NCBI GenBank assembly: GCA_947475995.1
Contig: CANJNI010000023.1
Coordinates: 1-64,000, forward strand
Direction of reading: 5' to 3'
Source of the DNA: Beijerinckiaceae bacterium
GTDB lineage: Bacteria > Pseudomonadota > Alphaproteobacteria > Rhizobiales > Beijerinckiaceae
DNA length: 64,000 nt
A model generated the notes under the pieces. That model worked only from the letters and a program-made list of their open reading frames with translations. It was not told where the DNA came from and did no database searches. This document shows positions 49,773 to 56,562 of the stretch, piece by piece. Each line of letters begins with the position of its first letter. The stretch's first letter is position 1. The position numbers were made by a program, and so were the translations under genes.

Positions 49773-52700
49773 TCAGTCGAAGCGGCCTGCCGCATGTGCG
49801 AGCATCGTATAGACCTTGCCGGTGTCTGAGGTCAGATACGAGCGCACCAGCGTCCCGTCGCGGTCCTCTCGGCCGACCTCGGTGAGGAGGCGCTCGAACT
49901 CGCGCGTATAGCGGGTCACGGTCTCCCGGAAATCCGCATCCACCCTGTAGCGGCGGCGGATTTCGTCGAAGGTCTGCTGTCCCTGCACGGTGTAGAGCCG
50001 GCGGGAGAACACATTGCGCTCGCCCCGGTTGTAGCGCTCCCACACGTCCATGACGGCGTCGTGATCGACCATGCGGGCAATGTCGAGCGAGATCGACTCG
50101 AGCGTATCGGCAGGCTTCGCGACCGGGGCAGGCGCAGCGCGCTGGGCCTCGGGCTCGTCGCGGGAGGCGCGGGCGAGCAGGTCCGAAATCCAGCCTGCGC
50201 CGCGATCGGTCGCCGAACGGGCAGGGCTTGCGGCGGCGGCGCGGCGCGGTTCCTCGCGCGGCGGCGGCGGGGTGACGCGCGCTTCGTTGCGGAACGGCTC
50301 GAAGCTGCGGGCCGGTTCGGGACGCGCCTCTTTCCGCGCGGGTTCGGACATCCGGAAGGTCGGTGCGGGATCGACCGGGCGCGGCGTGGCGCGGAAGGTC
50401 GGCTGCACGGCTTCGGGCATCCGCACCGGTTCGGGCGCGCGTTTGGTCTCGACGACGCGGGCGGGCTCGACGCGGGCGGCCGGAGCAGCGTCCACAACGT
50501 CATAGGCGCGGCCTGACCGGGAGACGAGTTCGGTCAGTTCGCCGAGCGCCTTGATCTGGTCGTTGACGACACGGCGCAGTGCGGCGGCCTGTTCGGCCGT
50601 CTCGCGCGGCAGGTCCGCAGTCCCGCGGCGCACTTCCTGCCGGGTCGCTTCCAGTTCCTGCTGGATTTGCGCCGACACAGTGCGCACTTCCTGGGCGGAG
50701 GTCTGGAATCGTTCGGTGGCCTGCGAGAACAGTTCGTTCATCTCGCGGATGGCCTGCTCGTAGGCGGCCCGCAGGGCTGCAGCGGTGCGCTCGCGTTCGC
50801 GGCCGCTCGCATCGCGGATTTCCTCGAATTGCGAGCCGATCATGCCCGCCACGCCCTGCGTGGTTTCGGACAGGAACGTGCCGATGTCGCGTGCGCGCGC
50901 TTCCGCCTTCTGGAAGGATTCGTCGAGCAGGGAGGAGAAAGACCGAAGCACGCCGTCGAAGTCGCCGGTGCGGCGGTTGATCTCGGCCAGAAGCGCGTCG
51001 AGCGACTCGCGGCGCTGCTCGACCATATGTTCGATCTCACGCTGCGAGCGGCTGAATTCGACCGCGCTGAGTTCGAGGTTCTGCTGTTCGGTCTGGAGGC
51101 GGCCGGCCAGCGCGCCGGCGTTCTCGAGCGTCGAGGACGCCGTCTGGTTGAGGGTGATGACCTGCGTGGAGATTGCGCCAAGCGACGACTGGAAATCGCG
51201 CACGCGATTGCCGAGCGCGCCTTCGATGGCGCCGAGATTCTGGCTGGCGTCGCCGATGATCGACTGCAAGGCCGTGTTGGTGTTCGAAAGCTGATCGAGC
51301 ACGGCGACCATCTCGCTCTTGAGGCGGTCGTTGGCGCTGAGCAGCGAATGAACGGACTGGGTGGCGCTCGTCTCGATCGCCTGACGCAGGCCGTTGGTCG
51401 AATGATCGACCGCAGCGGACAGTTCCATGCGGGTCTTGCCGAGTTGCTGCACCACGGAGGCGCCGCGCTGCTCGATCGCATTGGCGACCAGTTCGCCGAC
51501 GCTCGCGACTTCCTGGGCGATCTCGCTGCCGCGCGACGACAGGAGTTCGATCAGCATCGGACCCTTCTGGTCCAGCATGTCGTGCAGTTCGGACGAGCGC
51601 GTCGCCAGCGTGTTGTGAAGCTGCGACGTGCTCTGCGAGAGCGATCGTTCGATCTCGCCGATGCGGCGCGTGAGCGTCTCTTCCAGCACCTGCGGATTGA
51701 GAACGGCCGCGACGCGTTCGACGCCGTCGCCCAGCACGCGCGCGATGTCGAGCGCATTCTGTGCGAGCGTGTCGCGGACAGCAGCGCCGCGCGCCTCGAG
51801 GCCTGACTCGATCTTCTCGGTGATCTGCGTCAGCGTGCGGGCGACTTCGCCGGCGCGCGATGCGGTGGTGCGGTCGAAATTGTCGATCTGCTCCGCCAGA
51901 CGCTCCGAGACTTCGGTCGTGCGCACCGATGCGGTTTCCTCGAACCGTTCGATGTGGCTGGCCATCGTGTCGATGTGCGACGCGATGCGTTCGGCCACTT
52001 CCACGGCGCGGGTCGAGGCTGTTTCCTCGAAGCGGGCGATATGGGCGGCCATCGTGTCGGCGATCTCGCGCGCCTTGGCGGCGGAAACGCTGTCGAAGCT
52101 CTGAAGCTGTTCGCCGATGGCGGCGGCGACTTCATCGGTCCGGGTTCCGGCGGCGTCTTCGAGCATCTGGATATGACCGACGAGCGCTGTCGTCACTTCC
52201 GTGGCGCGGGCAGCGGTGGTGCGGTCGAAGCTCTCGATCTGGTCCGCGATGGCGTTCAGAACGTCGTTCGTGCGCGTTCCGGCGGTCTCCTCGAAGACGC
52301 GCAGTTGCGCCTGGATTGTCTGCGCGGTTTCCTCCGCGTGCCGTGCGGCATGGTCGTTGAAAGTGCGGATGTAGCCGTCGAGCGCGCGGGCGATGGCGAC
52401 GGTCTTTTCGTTGGCGGCCTGCTCGAAGCGGCTGATATGCCCGTCGAAGGTGGCGGCCACCTCGATGGTCTTGAACTCGGCGGTCTCGTTGAAGTTGCGA
52501 ACCTTCGCTTCGAGCAGCGAGGCCGCTTCATGCGTGCGCTGCGCAAGACGATCCGTGAAGGCCTCGGCATGGGTCGTGAAGGCCGCTTCGACCGCGTCGA
52601 GCTTCTCGTTCACTTCGCCGGTGAACTTGTCCGAATGGGCGGCGATCTGCTGCGTCAGCGCGCTGCCGTGCGCCATGACCGCCTGTTCGAACGAACCAAC

Positions 52701-55397
52701 GCGATCCACGATGGCTTCGTTGATACGGTCCCCATGCATGCCGATGGCCGCAATGGCCTCCCCGGCGGAAGCCGCGAAACGTTCGTGCAGCGCGTTGGTC
52801 TGCGCCTCGAGCTGCGTGCGGGCGAGTTCGTGATGCTGGTCGAGCATCTCCGCGACTTCGTTGCCGGAGACATGGAAAAGCTGACGGGCGGCGTCGGCCT
52901 GCGCGGCGATGCGGGCCGCGATGTCCGACGTCGAGGCTTCGAGTTCTTCCTGCAGCTTGCGGCCCTGGACCGTGATGGTTTCCTGCAGCTGGTCGGTCGT
53001 CTGCGCGATGCGCACGGCCAGGTCCTGGCCGTCGCCGGTGATGACGGAGACGATGCGGGCGCTGGCTTCGTCGAGGCGTCCGGTGACGGCTTCGCTGTGC
53101 TCGGCGATGTTGCGGGTGAAATGATCTGCGCCGGCCGTGAGATGCCCGGCGAAGGTCTCGCTCTGCTCGGCCACGGTGCGGGTGAAGAACTCCGCCGTCG
53201 TGGTGAGCTTTTCAGCAATTGAATCGCCGTGCAGCGAGACCGCGTCGAGGAAGCGCGTGGATTCCTGATTGATGCGCGATGTGACCGCCTCGCCTCGCGA
53301 CGAGATGACCTCGCCGATTTCGCCCGCCGCATTGGCGATGCGGTCGGTGATGGCTTCGTTGTGCCCCGCCAGAGTTTCGGCGAGATGCATGGCTGCAGCG
53401 CCGACACGCTCGGCCAGCGACTCGCTGTGCGTCGTAAGGGCCTCGGTGAGATAGCCGGTCGTGTGTTCCAGATTGGCCGCAATGGTTTCGGAACCCGTCG
53501 ACATGGCGGCCGCCAGACGGTTCGTGGCTTCGTCGACGCTGGAGACGATGTGGTCGGAATGGCCCGACAGGGTCTGGGTCAGCTTGCCCGAGCCGGATTC
53601 GAGCGTGGTCGCAAGCCGTTCCGTGGCTGCTTCCAGATTTGTGCCGAGCAGCGAGGTCTGACCCGAAATCGTTTCGGTGAGGCGCGAGGCCGCGCTGTTG
53701 AGATCGCCCGTGAGTTGTTCACCATGCTGGGTGAGTGTGCCGGCCAGATGAGCGGCGGCGGTCGCGATGCTGTTGGCGAGCGTGTCCGTGTGGCTCGCCA
53801 GTATTTCGGCGTGCTGCGACAGGGTCGTGCCGAGAACGCCCGACGACTGGTCGAGCGTCTGGGTGATGCGGTCGGTGCCGCTGTTGATGGTCGCCGCCAG
53901 ATTGCTGGTCGATGTTTCGACCTTGGTGGTCAGCAGCGCGCCATAAATTGACAGCGTCTCGCCGACTTCGGTCGTGGAACGTTCGAGCTGTTCGGTAAGG
54001 GTCGTGGTTCCCGTCGTGAGGCTCTCGGCAAGCTTCGCGCTTGCTTCATCGAGGCGGGTGGTCAGCGAATCGCCACGCGTGGCGATCGTGTCGGCGATCA
54101 ACGACGCGGTTTCGCTCAGGCGCGCCGCCAGATTGTCGCCGCGCGAGGAGATCGTATCGGCGATGCGGCTGCCGGTTTCGTCGAGCCGCGTGGCGACTTC
54201 CGTGCCGCGCAGGCCGAGGTCCGCCACGAGAGCTTCGCCGGTGGTCTTCAGGCGCTGGTCGAGCGAGCCGACCTGTTCGGCCAGCGTGGTGGCGACGGTC
54301 TCGGACGCATCGGAGAGCTTGCGGGCGACGTCTTCGCCCGTGCCGGAAAGGCGCGTAACGATGTCCGCGCCGTGGGCGCCGATCTGTTCGACCAGCGTTT
54401 CGCCGGTGCGGGCGAGGGTGAGGCTGATTTCCTCGCCCTTCGAACCCAGGGAGGTGGTGACGCGCGCGCCGGCGTCGCTGACGCGCTCGGCGATCTGGCG
54501 ACCGGCGGTTTCGAGTTCCTTCGAAAGCGAGTCATGGGCGCCGGTGATGGCGAGCTTCACGCGCTCCGCATTGGACGCAATGGCTTCGCGTTCCGAAATG
54601 AGTTCGTCGAGCAGGGCGCGCATGCGCCGCTCGTTGTCCGAATACGAGCGTTCCAGGTTCGAGACTTCGGAACGCACGACCGTTTCGAGTTCCGCCGCGC
54701 GGGCGAGCGCCCGCTCGATCCCGTCGCCCATGGAGGCGACCTCGCGGCGGATGGCCTGCGACAGGGACACGACCTTCTCGGTCGCGAGGCCTTCGGGCTC
54801 CGCCAGACGAATGGCGACTTCGGTCATGGAACGCGCGGTGAGGCGCATTTCCTGGGCGCGGCGCATGATCCAGCCGGCGAGCAGGAACAGGAGCGCCGGG
54901 CCGAGCGCCGCAAAGCCCAGAACGGCGAGCGTATGCTGCGGCAGGCTCATCAATTCGCCGCTGCGCCAGAGGCTGAGGGCGTAAATGGCCGAGAGGCCGA
55001 GCCAGCCGGCGGCCAGCAGCAATCCGAGCAGAACCGGCGCGCGCGAGGGGCGGATCTGCATCGCCTGAAGAATCTGGCCGACGGAGCGCTGGTCGTCATT
55101 GGCGGCGACGGCGGTGGAGCGCGGCGGCTGCAACGGGGTTGCGCCGAGGTCGATCGGGGCAGGGCGCTCGATCGGCTCCCTGATGTCCAGCTTGGGGATG
55201 GCGCTGTCGTCTATGTCGGGAAGCCGCGAGGACGCCCGCACCGGAGGCGCGTCGTCGCCGATGGGATCGCCGATCTTGGGCAGGCGGGGTTCGTTGTCGG
55301 ACGTATTTTCGTCCTTGCCGGGCGTCAGGTTCAGCGCCTCCTCGATGGCCGAGAGCGCCGCCGCCGCCGGATCGAGAGGTTTGGGTTGGGTCGCCAT
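49773..55397 (-). CDS. Giant GPR/RgsE-like growth-pole-ring protein
   Basis: A 1874-residue protein matching the layout of the growth-pole-ring protein GPR of Agrobacterium (RgsE in Sinorhizobium), which forms a ring at the growing pole and is needed for unipolar growth. A disordered acidic N-terminus (about 1-115) is followed by two transmembrane helices (about 120-142 and 158-178) and then about 1400 residues of helical, apolipoprotein A-like repeats. The repeats carry Thr/Ser/Ala-Glu patterns such as TLAEQVGSLDQRLKTTGEAL. A Pro-rich linker (about 1640-1760) leads to a compact C-terminal domain (VMDVWERYNRGERNVFSRRLYTVQGQQTF part). The ATG at 55397 is the first in frame. Confidence 0.85.
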   Translation of the reverse strand: MATQPKPLDPAAAALSAIEEALNLTPGKDENTSDNEPRLPKIGDPIGDDAPPVRASSRLPDIDDSAIPKLDIREPIERPAPIDLGATPLQPPRSTAVAANDDQRSVGQILQAMQIRPSRAPVLLGLLLAAGWLGLSAIYALSLWRSGELMSLPQHTLAVLGFAALGPALLFLLAGWIMRRAQEMRLTARSMTEVAIRLAEPEGLATEKVVSLSQAIRREVASMGDGIERALARAAELETVVRSEVSNLERSYSDNERRMRALLDELISEREAIASNAERVKLAITGAHDSLSKELETAGRQIAERVSDAGARVTTSLGSKGEEISLTLARTGETLVEQIGAHGADIVTRLSGTGEDVARKLSDASETVATTLAEQVGSLDQRLKTTGEALVADLGLRGTEVATRLDETGSRIADTISSRGDNLAARLSETASLIADTIATRGDSLTTRLDEASAKLAESLTTGTTTLTEQLERSTTEVGETLSIYGALLTTKVETSTSNLAATINSGTDRITQTLDQSSGVLGTTLSQHAEILASHTDTLANSIATAAAHLAGTLTQHGEQLTGDLNSAASRLTETISGQTSLLGTNLEAATERLATTLESGSGKLTQTLSGHSDHIVSSVDEATNRLAAAMSTGSETIAANLEHTTGYLTEALTTHSESLAERVGAAAMHLAETLAGHNEAITDRIANAAGEIGEVISSRGEAVTSRINQESTRFLDAVSLHGDSIAEKLTTTAEFFTRTVAEQSETFAGHLTAGADHFTRNIAEHSEAVTGRLDEASARIVSVITGDGQDLAVRIAQTTDQLQETITVQGRKLQEELEASTSDIAARIAAQADAARQLFHVSGNEVAEMLDQHHELARTQLEAQTNALHERFAASAGEAIAAIGMHGDRINEAIVDRVGSFEQAVMAHGSALTQQIAAHSDKFTGEVNEKLDAVEAAFTTHAEAFTDRLAQRTHEAASLLEAKVRNFNETAEFKTIEVAATFDGHISRFEQAANEKTVAIARALDGYIRTFNDHAARHAEETAQTIQAQLRVFEETAGTRTNDVLNAIADQIESFDRTTAARATEVTTALVGHIQMLEDAAGTRTDEVAAAIGEQLQSFDSVSAAKAREIADTMAAHIARFEETASTRAVEVAERIASHIDTMASHIERFEETASVRTTEVSERLAEQIDNFDRTTASRAGEVARTLTQITEKIESGLEARGAAVRDTLAQNALDIARVLGDGVERVAAVLNPQVLEETLTRRIGEIERSLSQSTSQLHNTLATRSSELHDMLDQKGPMLIELLSSRGSEIAQEVASVGELVANAIEQRGASVVQQLGKTRMELSAAVDHSTNGLRQAIETSATQSVHSLLSANDRLKSEMVAVLDQLSNTNTALQSIIGDASQNLGAIEGALGNRVRDFQSSLGAISTQVITLNQTASSTLENAGALAGRLQTEQQNLELSAVEFSRSQREIEHMVEQRRESLDALLAEINRRTGDFDGVLRSFSSLLDESFQKAEARARDIGTFLSETTQGVAGMIGSQFEEIRDASGRERERTAAALRAAYEQAIREMNELFSQATERFQTSAQEVRTVSAQIQQELEATRQEVRRGTADLPRETAEQAAALRRVVNDQIKALGELTELVSRSGRAYDVVDAAPAARVEPARVVETKRAPEPVRMPEAVQPTFRATPRPVDPAPTFRMSEPARKEARPEPARSFEPFRNEARVTPPPPREEPRRAAAASPARSATDRGAGWISDLLARASRDEPEAQRAAPAPVAKPADTLESISLDIARMVDHDAVMDVWERYNRGERNVFSRRLYTVQGQQTFDEIRRRYRVDADFRETVTRYTREFERLLTEVGREDRDGTLVRSYLTSDTGKVYTMLAHAAGRFD

Positions 55398-55483
55398 CTG
55401 TTACGCCTCGCGCTACGCCTCGACTACATAACGATAAAATGCTTGCCGATCGCCAGTGGGCCTCGGACCGGCAGCTTTCATCG

Positions 55484-55498
55484 TTAACCAAATCTTAA
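55484..55498. promoter_or_regulatory. CtrA binding box (TTAA-N7-TTAA), perfect
   Basis: TTAACCAAATCTTAA fits the full CtrA consensus of alphaproteobacteria. It lies 86 bases upstream of the GPR-like gene start, a typical distance for direct control. Confidence 0.7.
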
Positions 55499-55555
55499 TG
55501 TACAGCGAAGGGCCGACGAATGAAACCGGCCCGGACATCCCAAAGCAAAACGTCG

Positions 55556-55570
55556 TTAACGCGACATTTA
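55556..55570. promoter_or_regulatory. CtrA-like box (TTAA-N7-TTTA), one mismatch
   Basis: TTAACGCGACATTTA differs from the CtrA consensus in one base. It lies on the HPt side of the region, 134 bases upstream of the HPt start. Confidence 0.5.
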
Positions 55571-55704
55571 CCCTGTTACTGAAGGGTTTGTTCACCTCAG
55601 GCGAGGATCGGGTGTGGATAATCCCGCCGGTTCATCTGCCGTTCGGCTTCAGTTTGCACAATAGCCGGCGTGGCATCGGATCATGCCGCACATGGAGACT
55701 TCGT

Positions 55705-56115
55705 ATGTCAATGCAGGCTGCCCGCCAGTTTGGTACCCGCGACGGGTACAAGCCGCCCGCCCCGGCGACCGACCGTCCGATTGATCTTGTTCACCTTTCA
55801 CGCCAGACACTGGGCGACCGGGCGCTGGAAATGGAACTGCTTTCCCTGTTCGAGCGGCAGGCGGCGCAGGCGATCGAGCGTCTCCAGCAGCCCAATGGAA
55901 ATGGGGAGCGCCGCTGGCGGCACGATCTGGCCCATACCCTGAAAGGCTCTGCCCGCGCCGTGGGCGCCGGGCGGGTTGCGGCGGCCGCGCAGTCCTATGA
56001 AGAGGCCCTGTTCTCCTCGACGAGCGAGACGGAAATCGCGGTGGTTCTGGCCGAACTGGCCGCTGCGGTCGAGGAAGCCCGGAAGGCAGCGCTGGAATTC
56101 GTCTCCGAGGCCTGA
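55705..56115 (+). CDS. Stand-alone HPt phosphotransfer protein
   Basis: A 136-residue histidine phosphotransfer protein. The phosphorylatable His lies in DLAHTLKGSARAVGA (H77), within a four-helix bundle with leading segment LVHLSRQTLGDRALEMELL. It has no kinase or receiver domain. It would relay phosphate between a hybrid kinase and a response regulator. The start at 55705 has GGAG upstream; the track start at 55456 spans the control region. Being divergent from the growth-pole-ring gene with CtrA boxes between suggests a role in cell-cycle signalling, though partner proteins are not in the window. Confidence 0.85.
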   Translation: MSMQAARQFGTRDGYKPPAPATDRPIDLVHLSRQTLGDRALEMELLSLFERQAAQAIERLQQPNGNGERRWRHDLAHTLKGSARAVGAGRVAAAAQSYEEALFSSTSETEIAVVLAELAAAVEEARKAALEFVSEA

Positions 56116-56241: not shown

Positions 56242-56562
56242 ATGGTGAAGATTACCTATATCGACAATGATGGCGAAAGCCGGTCCGTCAACGCCGAGGA
56301 AGGCTCGACGGTCATGGAGACCGCCCTGCGCAACGACATTCCGGGCATCGAGGCGGAATGCGGCGGCGCCTGCGCCTGCGCGACCTGCCACGTCTATGTT
56401 GAAGAAGAATGGTTCGCCAAGCTGCCGAAGGCGCAGCAGATGGAAGAAGACATGCTGGATTTCGCCAGCGACGTCCGCCCCACCTCGCGCCTCTCCTGCC
56501 AGATCAAGGTCGCCAAGGACATTGACGGGCTGGTGGTGACGACGCCGGAATCGCAGGGCTAG
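56242..56562 (+). CDS. [2Fe-2S] ferredoxin, adrenodoxin type
   Basis: A 106-residue ferredoxin with cluster ligands C40-x5-C46-x2-C49 and C86 ([12 protein letters not shown] and LSCQIK). This is the adrenodoxin/ISC-Fdx/putidaredoxin group, used for iron-sulfur assembly or cytochrome P450 electron supply. The [18 protein letters not shown] end is typical. It is followed 124 bases later by a ferredoxin-NADP reductase, a natural electron donor. Confidence 0.94.

Follow-up and report, generated by a model that had tools for sequence, protein, structure and literature searches.

CtrA is the master cell-cycle regulator of alphaproteobacteria. In the window, a stretch of 64,000 nucleotides from a Beijerinckiaceae bacterium analysed here as a whole, two boxes of CtrA type lie between divergent genes for a growth pole ring protein (GPR) and an orphan HPt protein, and the locus raises the question of which of these genes the boxes belong to. 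An earlier note on this DNA had placed polar growth and the HPt protein together under CtrA timing.

The GPR/HPt gap and its two boxes

The gap and its surroundings contain the following features.

49773..55397, (-): GPR / RgsE homologue, growth pole ring protein, 1874 aa (PF01442, E 6.5e-71)
55484-55498, (-): Box 1, TTAACCAAATCTTAA, a perfect TTAA-N7-TTAA, read in the GPR direction as TTAAGATTTGGTTAAC, that is, TTAA-N7-TTAAC
55497..55502, (-): predicted GPR -10, TACATT (consensus TAnRWT), from footprint and distance peak
55519..55527, (-): predicted GPR -35 region, GGTTTCATT (consensus GGTTTCAAT), 18 nt from the predicted -10
55549..55572, (-): extended element of Box 2, GGTAAATGTCGCGTTAACGACGTT (TAAA-N7-TTAAC), containing 55556-55570
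55556-55570: Box 2, TTAACGCGACATTTA, TTAA-N7-TTAA with one mismatch
55705..56115, (+): orphan HPt protein, 136 aa (PF01627, E 5.4e-9)
56242..56562, (+): 2Fe-2S ferredoxin, the usual gene next downstream of HPt

GPR is a very large protein with repeats of the apolipoprotein A1/A4/E type (PF01442), and hydrophobic stretches are visible in its N-terminal translation, as for an N-terminal membrane segment. It is homologous to RgsE of S. meliloti (SMc00190; PMC7327166), and localisation in a polar ring is known from GPR homologues (PMC7327166, PMC9938171). The HPt protein carries the invariant residues H77, G81 and A83, the phospho-accepting His77 (HTLKGSA) being encoded at 55933-55935, and 239 of the 298 Hyphomicrobiales genomes have a relative. 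Outside this order, too, the HPt gene diverges from, or lies close to, a gene whose product weakly resembles GPR/TipN (L235, L236, L240, L241, L245, L246, L248), and a perfect box lies 138 bp before the HPt match in L246, which belongs to another alphaproteobacterial order; the pairing of GPR-like and HPt genes may be older than Hyphomicrobiales.

The gap comprises 307 bases (55398-55704; 54% GC) between the starts of GPR at 55397 (-) and HPt at 55705 (+). Box 1 is the single occurrence of a perfect TTAA-N7-TTAA in the 64 kb window (shuffle mean 0.01), and when up to one mismatch is allowed, the whole window contains two sites, Box 1 and Box 2, both in this gap. Among 20,000 dinucleotide shuffles of the 307 bases, a perfect site arose in 0.33% and at least two sites with up to one mismatch in 0.42%; the earlier note had reported a perfect repeat and a one-mismatch copy in the gap, and both were recovered; the two shuffle outcomes coincided in 0.03% of cases. 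The repeat and its spacing agree with the ChIP-derived CtrA consensus, TTAA-N7-TTAAC (PMC7200025).

The two boxes differ in their distribution. Box 2 is the element of the gap with the strongest conservation in the footprint. Its second half-site is frequently degenerate and its conserved core, CGTTAACGAYGTTT, exceeds the length of a CtrA half-site; both points weigh against the CtrA reading. The core CGTTAACGAYG (55549-55561 and relatives), present in 38 of 127 gaps, surpasses a CtrA half-site in length and in conservation, which hints at an additional factor or a more extensive contact. Box 1 is found mainly in Beijerinckiaceae-type loci, where its half TTGGTTAA is kept. CcrM sites (GANTC), present in 79 of the 127 gaps, do not occur in the window's own GPR/HPt gap and carry no information on this question.

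Conservation across Hyphomicrobiales

The comparison covered 80 named loci and about 110 from genomes across Hyphomicrobiales, and 127 GPR-HPt gaps were left for the spacing scan after removal of near-duplicates. TTAA-N7-TTAA with up to one mismatch occurs in 103 of these gaps. With any of 25 other spacings the count is 16-55, and for the N7 pattern in shuffled gaps it averages 15.6 (maximum 23). Perfect pairs behave in the same way; 33 gaps contain one at N7, 0-19 at other spacings, and shuffled sequences give a mean of 1.05 and a maximum of 3. The runner-up spacing is N6, which is known for some CtrA sites (PMC4287350), and perfect pairs also show a secondary peak at N16 (16 regions), for which adjacent or overlapping boxes may be responsible. 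Site density is 2.84 per kb in the gaps vs 0.43 in adjacent noncoding DNA of similar GC content. At least half of the loci have the box in 24 of 30 families, so that the conservation upstream of GPR, which the earlier note had proposed as a check in relatives, holds for most of them. The box is lacking in family f2, where one of nine loci has it, and in f5, f10, f22, f31 and f39, mostly singletons. Family f2 (L129-L132, L197, L198, L202, L203, L206) keeps the GPR-HPt order intact and lacks the N7 box in 8 of its 9 genomes, and offers a natural negative set.

Linkage of Box 2 to GPR

Loci in which the two genes have become separated are informative about the owner of the box. Family f35 (Hansschlegelia and its relatives) has a relocated GPR that now follows the HPt and ferredoxin genes. 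Two genomes of family f20 (L040, L153) carry an insert that splits the pair by 2.5-3.4 kb. The box is upstream of GPR in all of these nine genomes from two families (f35, 7/7; f20, 2/2). Each of the nine moved genes has it as a sequence of the type GGTGAA-N5-CGTTAACGAYGTT, equivalent to Box 2 in GPR orientation, some 100-265 bases before the predicted start, and no box was found within 500 bp upstream of HPt in any f35 locus or in L040 and L153. Since the box stays with GPR after separation and is absent before HPt, Box 2 is linked to GPR.

The geometry of the predicted GPR promoter points in the same direction. The footprint, read toward GPR, has the order Box 2, GGTTTCAAT, 17-18 bases and TAnRWT; loci of Rhizobiaceae, Phyllobacteriaceae and Bradyrhizobium-like genomes have a similar order of elements with box variants of their own. 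Over all gaps, the distance from the start of the box to TAnRWT peaks at 64-71 nt (the fullest 10-nt bin holds 27 regions vs a median of 6), a peak that is descriptive because the TAnRWT pattern was picked after the alignments were viewed, and the same scan on the opposite, HPt strand gives no peak. In the window, Box 2 starts 68 nt upstream of the predicted -10. Box 1 overlaps the predicted -10/+1 of GPR, a placement that would be a repressor position.

The claim of shared timing was thereby only partly upheld. Its CtrA part is supported by the consensus, by the spacing, by the box kept before GPR and by the failure of base composition to account for the boxes; its HPt part is not, there being no box before HPt where GPR has left and no -10 peak in the HPt direction. 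If the boxes nevertheless served both divergent genes, CtrA at Box 2 would activate HPt as well as control GPR, and growth pole and phosphotransfer would be co-timed. The distance from the end of Box 2 to the HPt start codon (about 135 bases) and the retained adjacency of the genes, GPR being divergent to HPt in 173 of 190 loci, speak for such dual control; against it speak the loss of the box before HPt upon gene separation, the lack of a conserved -10 at a fixed distance in the HPt direction and the lack of any strongly conserved element beyond Box 2 toward HPt. Control of HPt by the box is unsupported, the separated HPt promoters being without one, and dual control seems rather unlikely.

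The identity of the reader is a separate matter. The boxes might instead be read by another OmpR-family envelope regulator, for example CenR, or by CtrA in combination with another factor, for example SciP, to which the long core of Box 2 could be due. CenR is a known controller of envelope and division genes, and Box 2, often TGAAC-N6-TTAAC, comes near to the CenR repeat TGA-N8-TGA; the CenKR regulon resembles this locus in its OmpR-type direct repeat with an 11-bp pitch at envelope promoters (PMC9275681). It differs in that TGA-N8-TGA is not enriched in GPR-HPt gaps (18 regions vs 10-24 at other spacings), and the CenR motif was rejected on this count; enriched instead is T[TG]AA-N7-TTAAC, with 40 regions vs at most 19 at other spacings. 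Perfect TTAA-N7-TTAA occurs in 12 of 30 families with varying spacers and flanks, which argues against both CenR and a composite reader, and we regard either as unlikely. Last, TTAA is common in intergenic DNA, and dinucleotide shuffles yield a site with up to one mismatch in 12% of gaps, so the boxes might be TTAA pairs that arose by chance because the promoter gap is richer in AT, and no regulator would read them. As a full explanation, chance is contradicted by the shuffles, the specificity for N7 in the spacing scan, the noncoding controls of similar GC content and the movement of the box with GPR, and it is hardly credible.

CtrA in the genome and the proposed timing of polar growth

At the level of sequence, the sites, their conservation and spacing and their linkage to GPR rather than HPt are in evidence, and so is CtrA itself. 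The window's genome encodes CtrA with a conserved DNA-binding domain on two contig ends, with identities of 95% (residues 1-190) and 93% (152-224) to a Caulobacter CtrA query. The reading that we consider likely is that both boxes are CtrA sites of the GPR promoter, Box 2 order-wide and Box 1 lineage-specific, with HPt as only a neighbour.

What we infer about CtrA binding, the effect of each site and the timing is as follows. CtrA~P would bind the TTAA-N7-TTAAC direct repeats in the GPR promoter. Box 2 would be the ancestral, order-wide upstream site with an activating or anchoring role, and Box 1, in the Beijerinckiaceae-type lineage, would cover -10/+1 and block RNA polymerase at high CtrA~P. 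Transcription of GPR, and hence tip growth, would follow the CtrA cycle up and down, and HPt would share the gap with GPR and nothing more. In Caulobacter CtrA promoters, full TTAA-N7-TTAA sites near -35 are activator sites and TTAA half-sites over -10 are repressors (PMC4287350). The repeat and its spacing are identical here, and Box 1 over the predicted -10/+1 would fit the repressor class, whereas Box 2, some 65-83 bases ahead of the start site predicted for GPR, lies beyond the activator position near -35, and the putative target is a polar-growth protein, unlike in the Caulobacter CtrA promoters. In Agrobacterium, a change of TTAA to AATT in a CtrA motif derepressed dgcB (PMC7003649).

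The 4.14 Mb genome contains 28 perfect sites vs 16 for a reversed control pattern. The 27 others, all but 3 of which lie between predicted genes, were annotated piecewise; most of them precede genes, and many of these genes serve division and the envelope. Perfect sites (L002, L007, L009, L012, L213, L211) are found a short way ahead of ftsK and of genes for an MltB-type transglycosylase, a YkuD L,D-transpeptidase, a class A PBP, D-Ala-D-Ala ligase (Ddl) and two outer membrane barrels, which probably form an envelope set timed by CtrA. At the class A PBP gene, the site is shared with a divergent gene for the DNA polymerase III beta subunit, the two genes flanking it. The positions of the sites before envelope and division genes are consistent with the Brucella CtrA ChIP-seq regulon, which comprises envelope and division genes (PMC10787603), and envelope, peptidoglycan and division genes likewise appear in the CtrA regulons of S. 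meliloti (PMC4433202) and Brucella abortus (Francis 2017 via PMC10787603). Upstream of the genome's own ctrA (L126) lie GGTAACCAAAGATTAAGG, which resembles Box 1 closely, and TTAACCATT, in keeping with autoregulation.

The earlier note had not seen a link between CtrA and GPR in print, and our literature search, which covered article texts, agrees in finding no statement of one with GPR/RgsE; the available S. meliloti and B. abortus CtrA texts do not name it as a CtrA target, and the link may already stand unremarked in a supplementary ChIP table. The closest case found is that of the Agrobacterium L,D-transpeptidases, upstream of which CtrA sites were predicted in silico (PMC11527210). It similarly connects a CtrA motif with polar-growth enzymes and differs in concerning LDT genes rather than GPR and in being a single-species motif scan without a conservation test. 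Branching follows both the loss of CtrA (PMC4433202) and overproduction of RgsE (PMC7327166), and these published phenotypes would be expected if CtrA limits GPR.

Given the conservation of the box in most of Hyphomicrobiales and its linkage to GPR, the cell-cycle clock probably has direct control over when polar growth takes place. A wider proposal, to which we would give an even chance, is that CtrA ancestrally and directly times the unipolar growth ring of Hyphomicrobiales through an upstream site that much of the order keeps at a near-fixed distance to the GPR -10, with an added operator over the start site in Beijerinckiaceae, and that GPR, class A PBP and L,D-transpeptidase form a CtrA-timed set for polar growth. 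If true, this would constitute a direct wire from the master regulator to the growth pole, bearing on how tip growth is coupled to the cell cycle in Rhizobiales, Brucella and Agrobacterium, and a conserved CtrA-type site before GPR could help to explain the branched cells that arise after CtrA loss.
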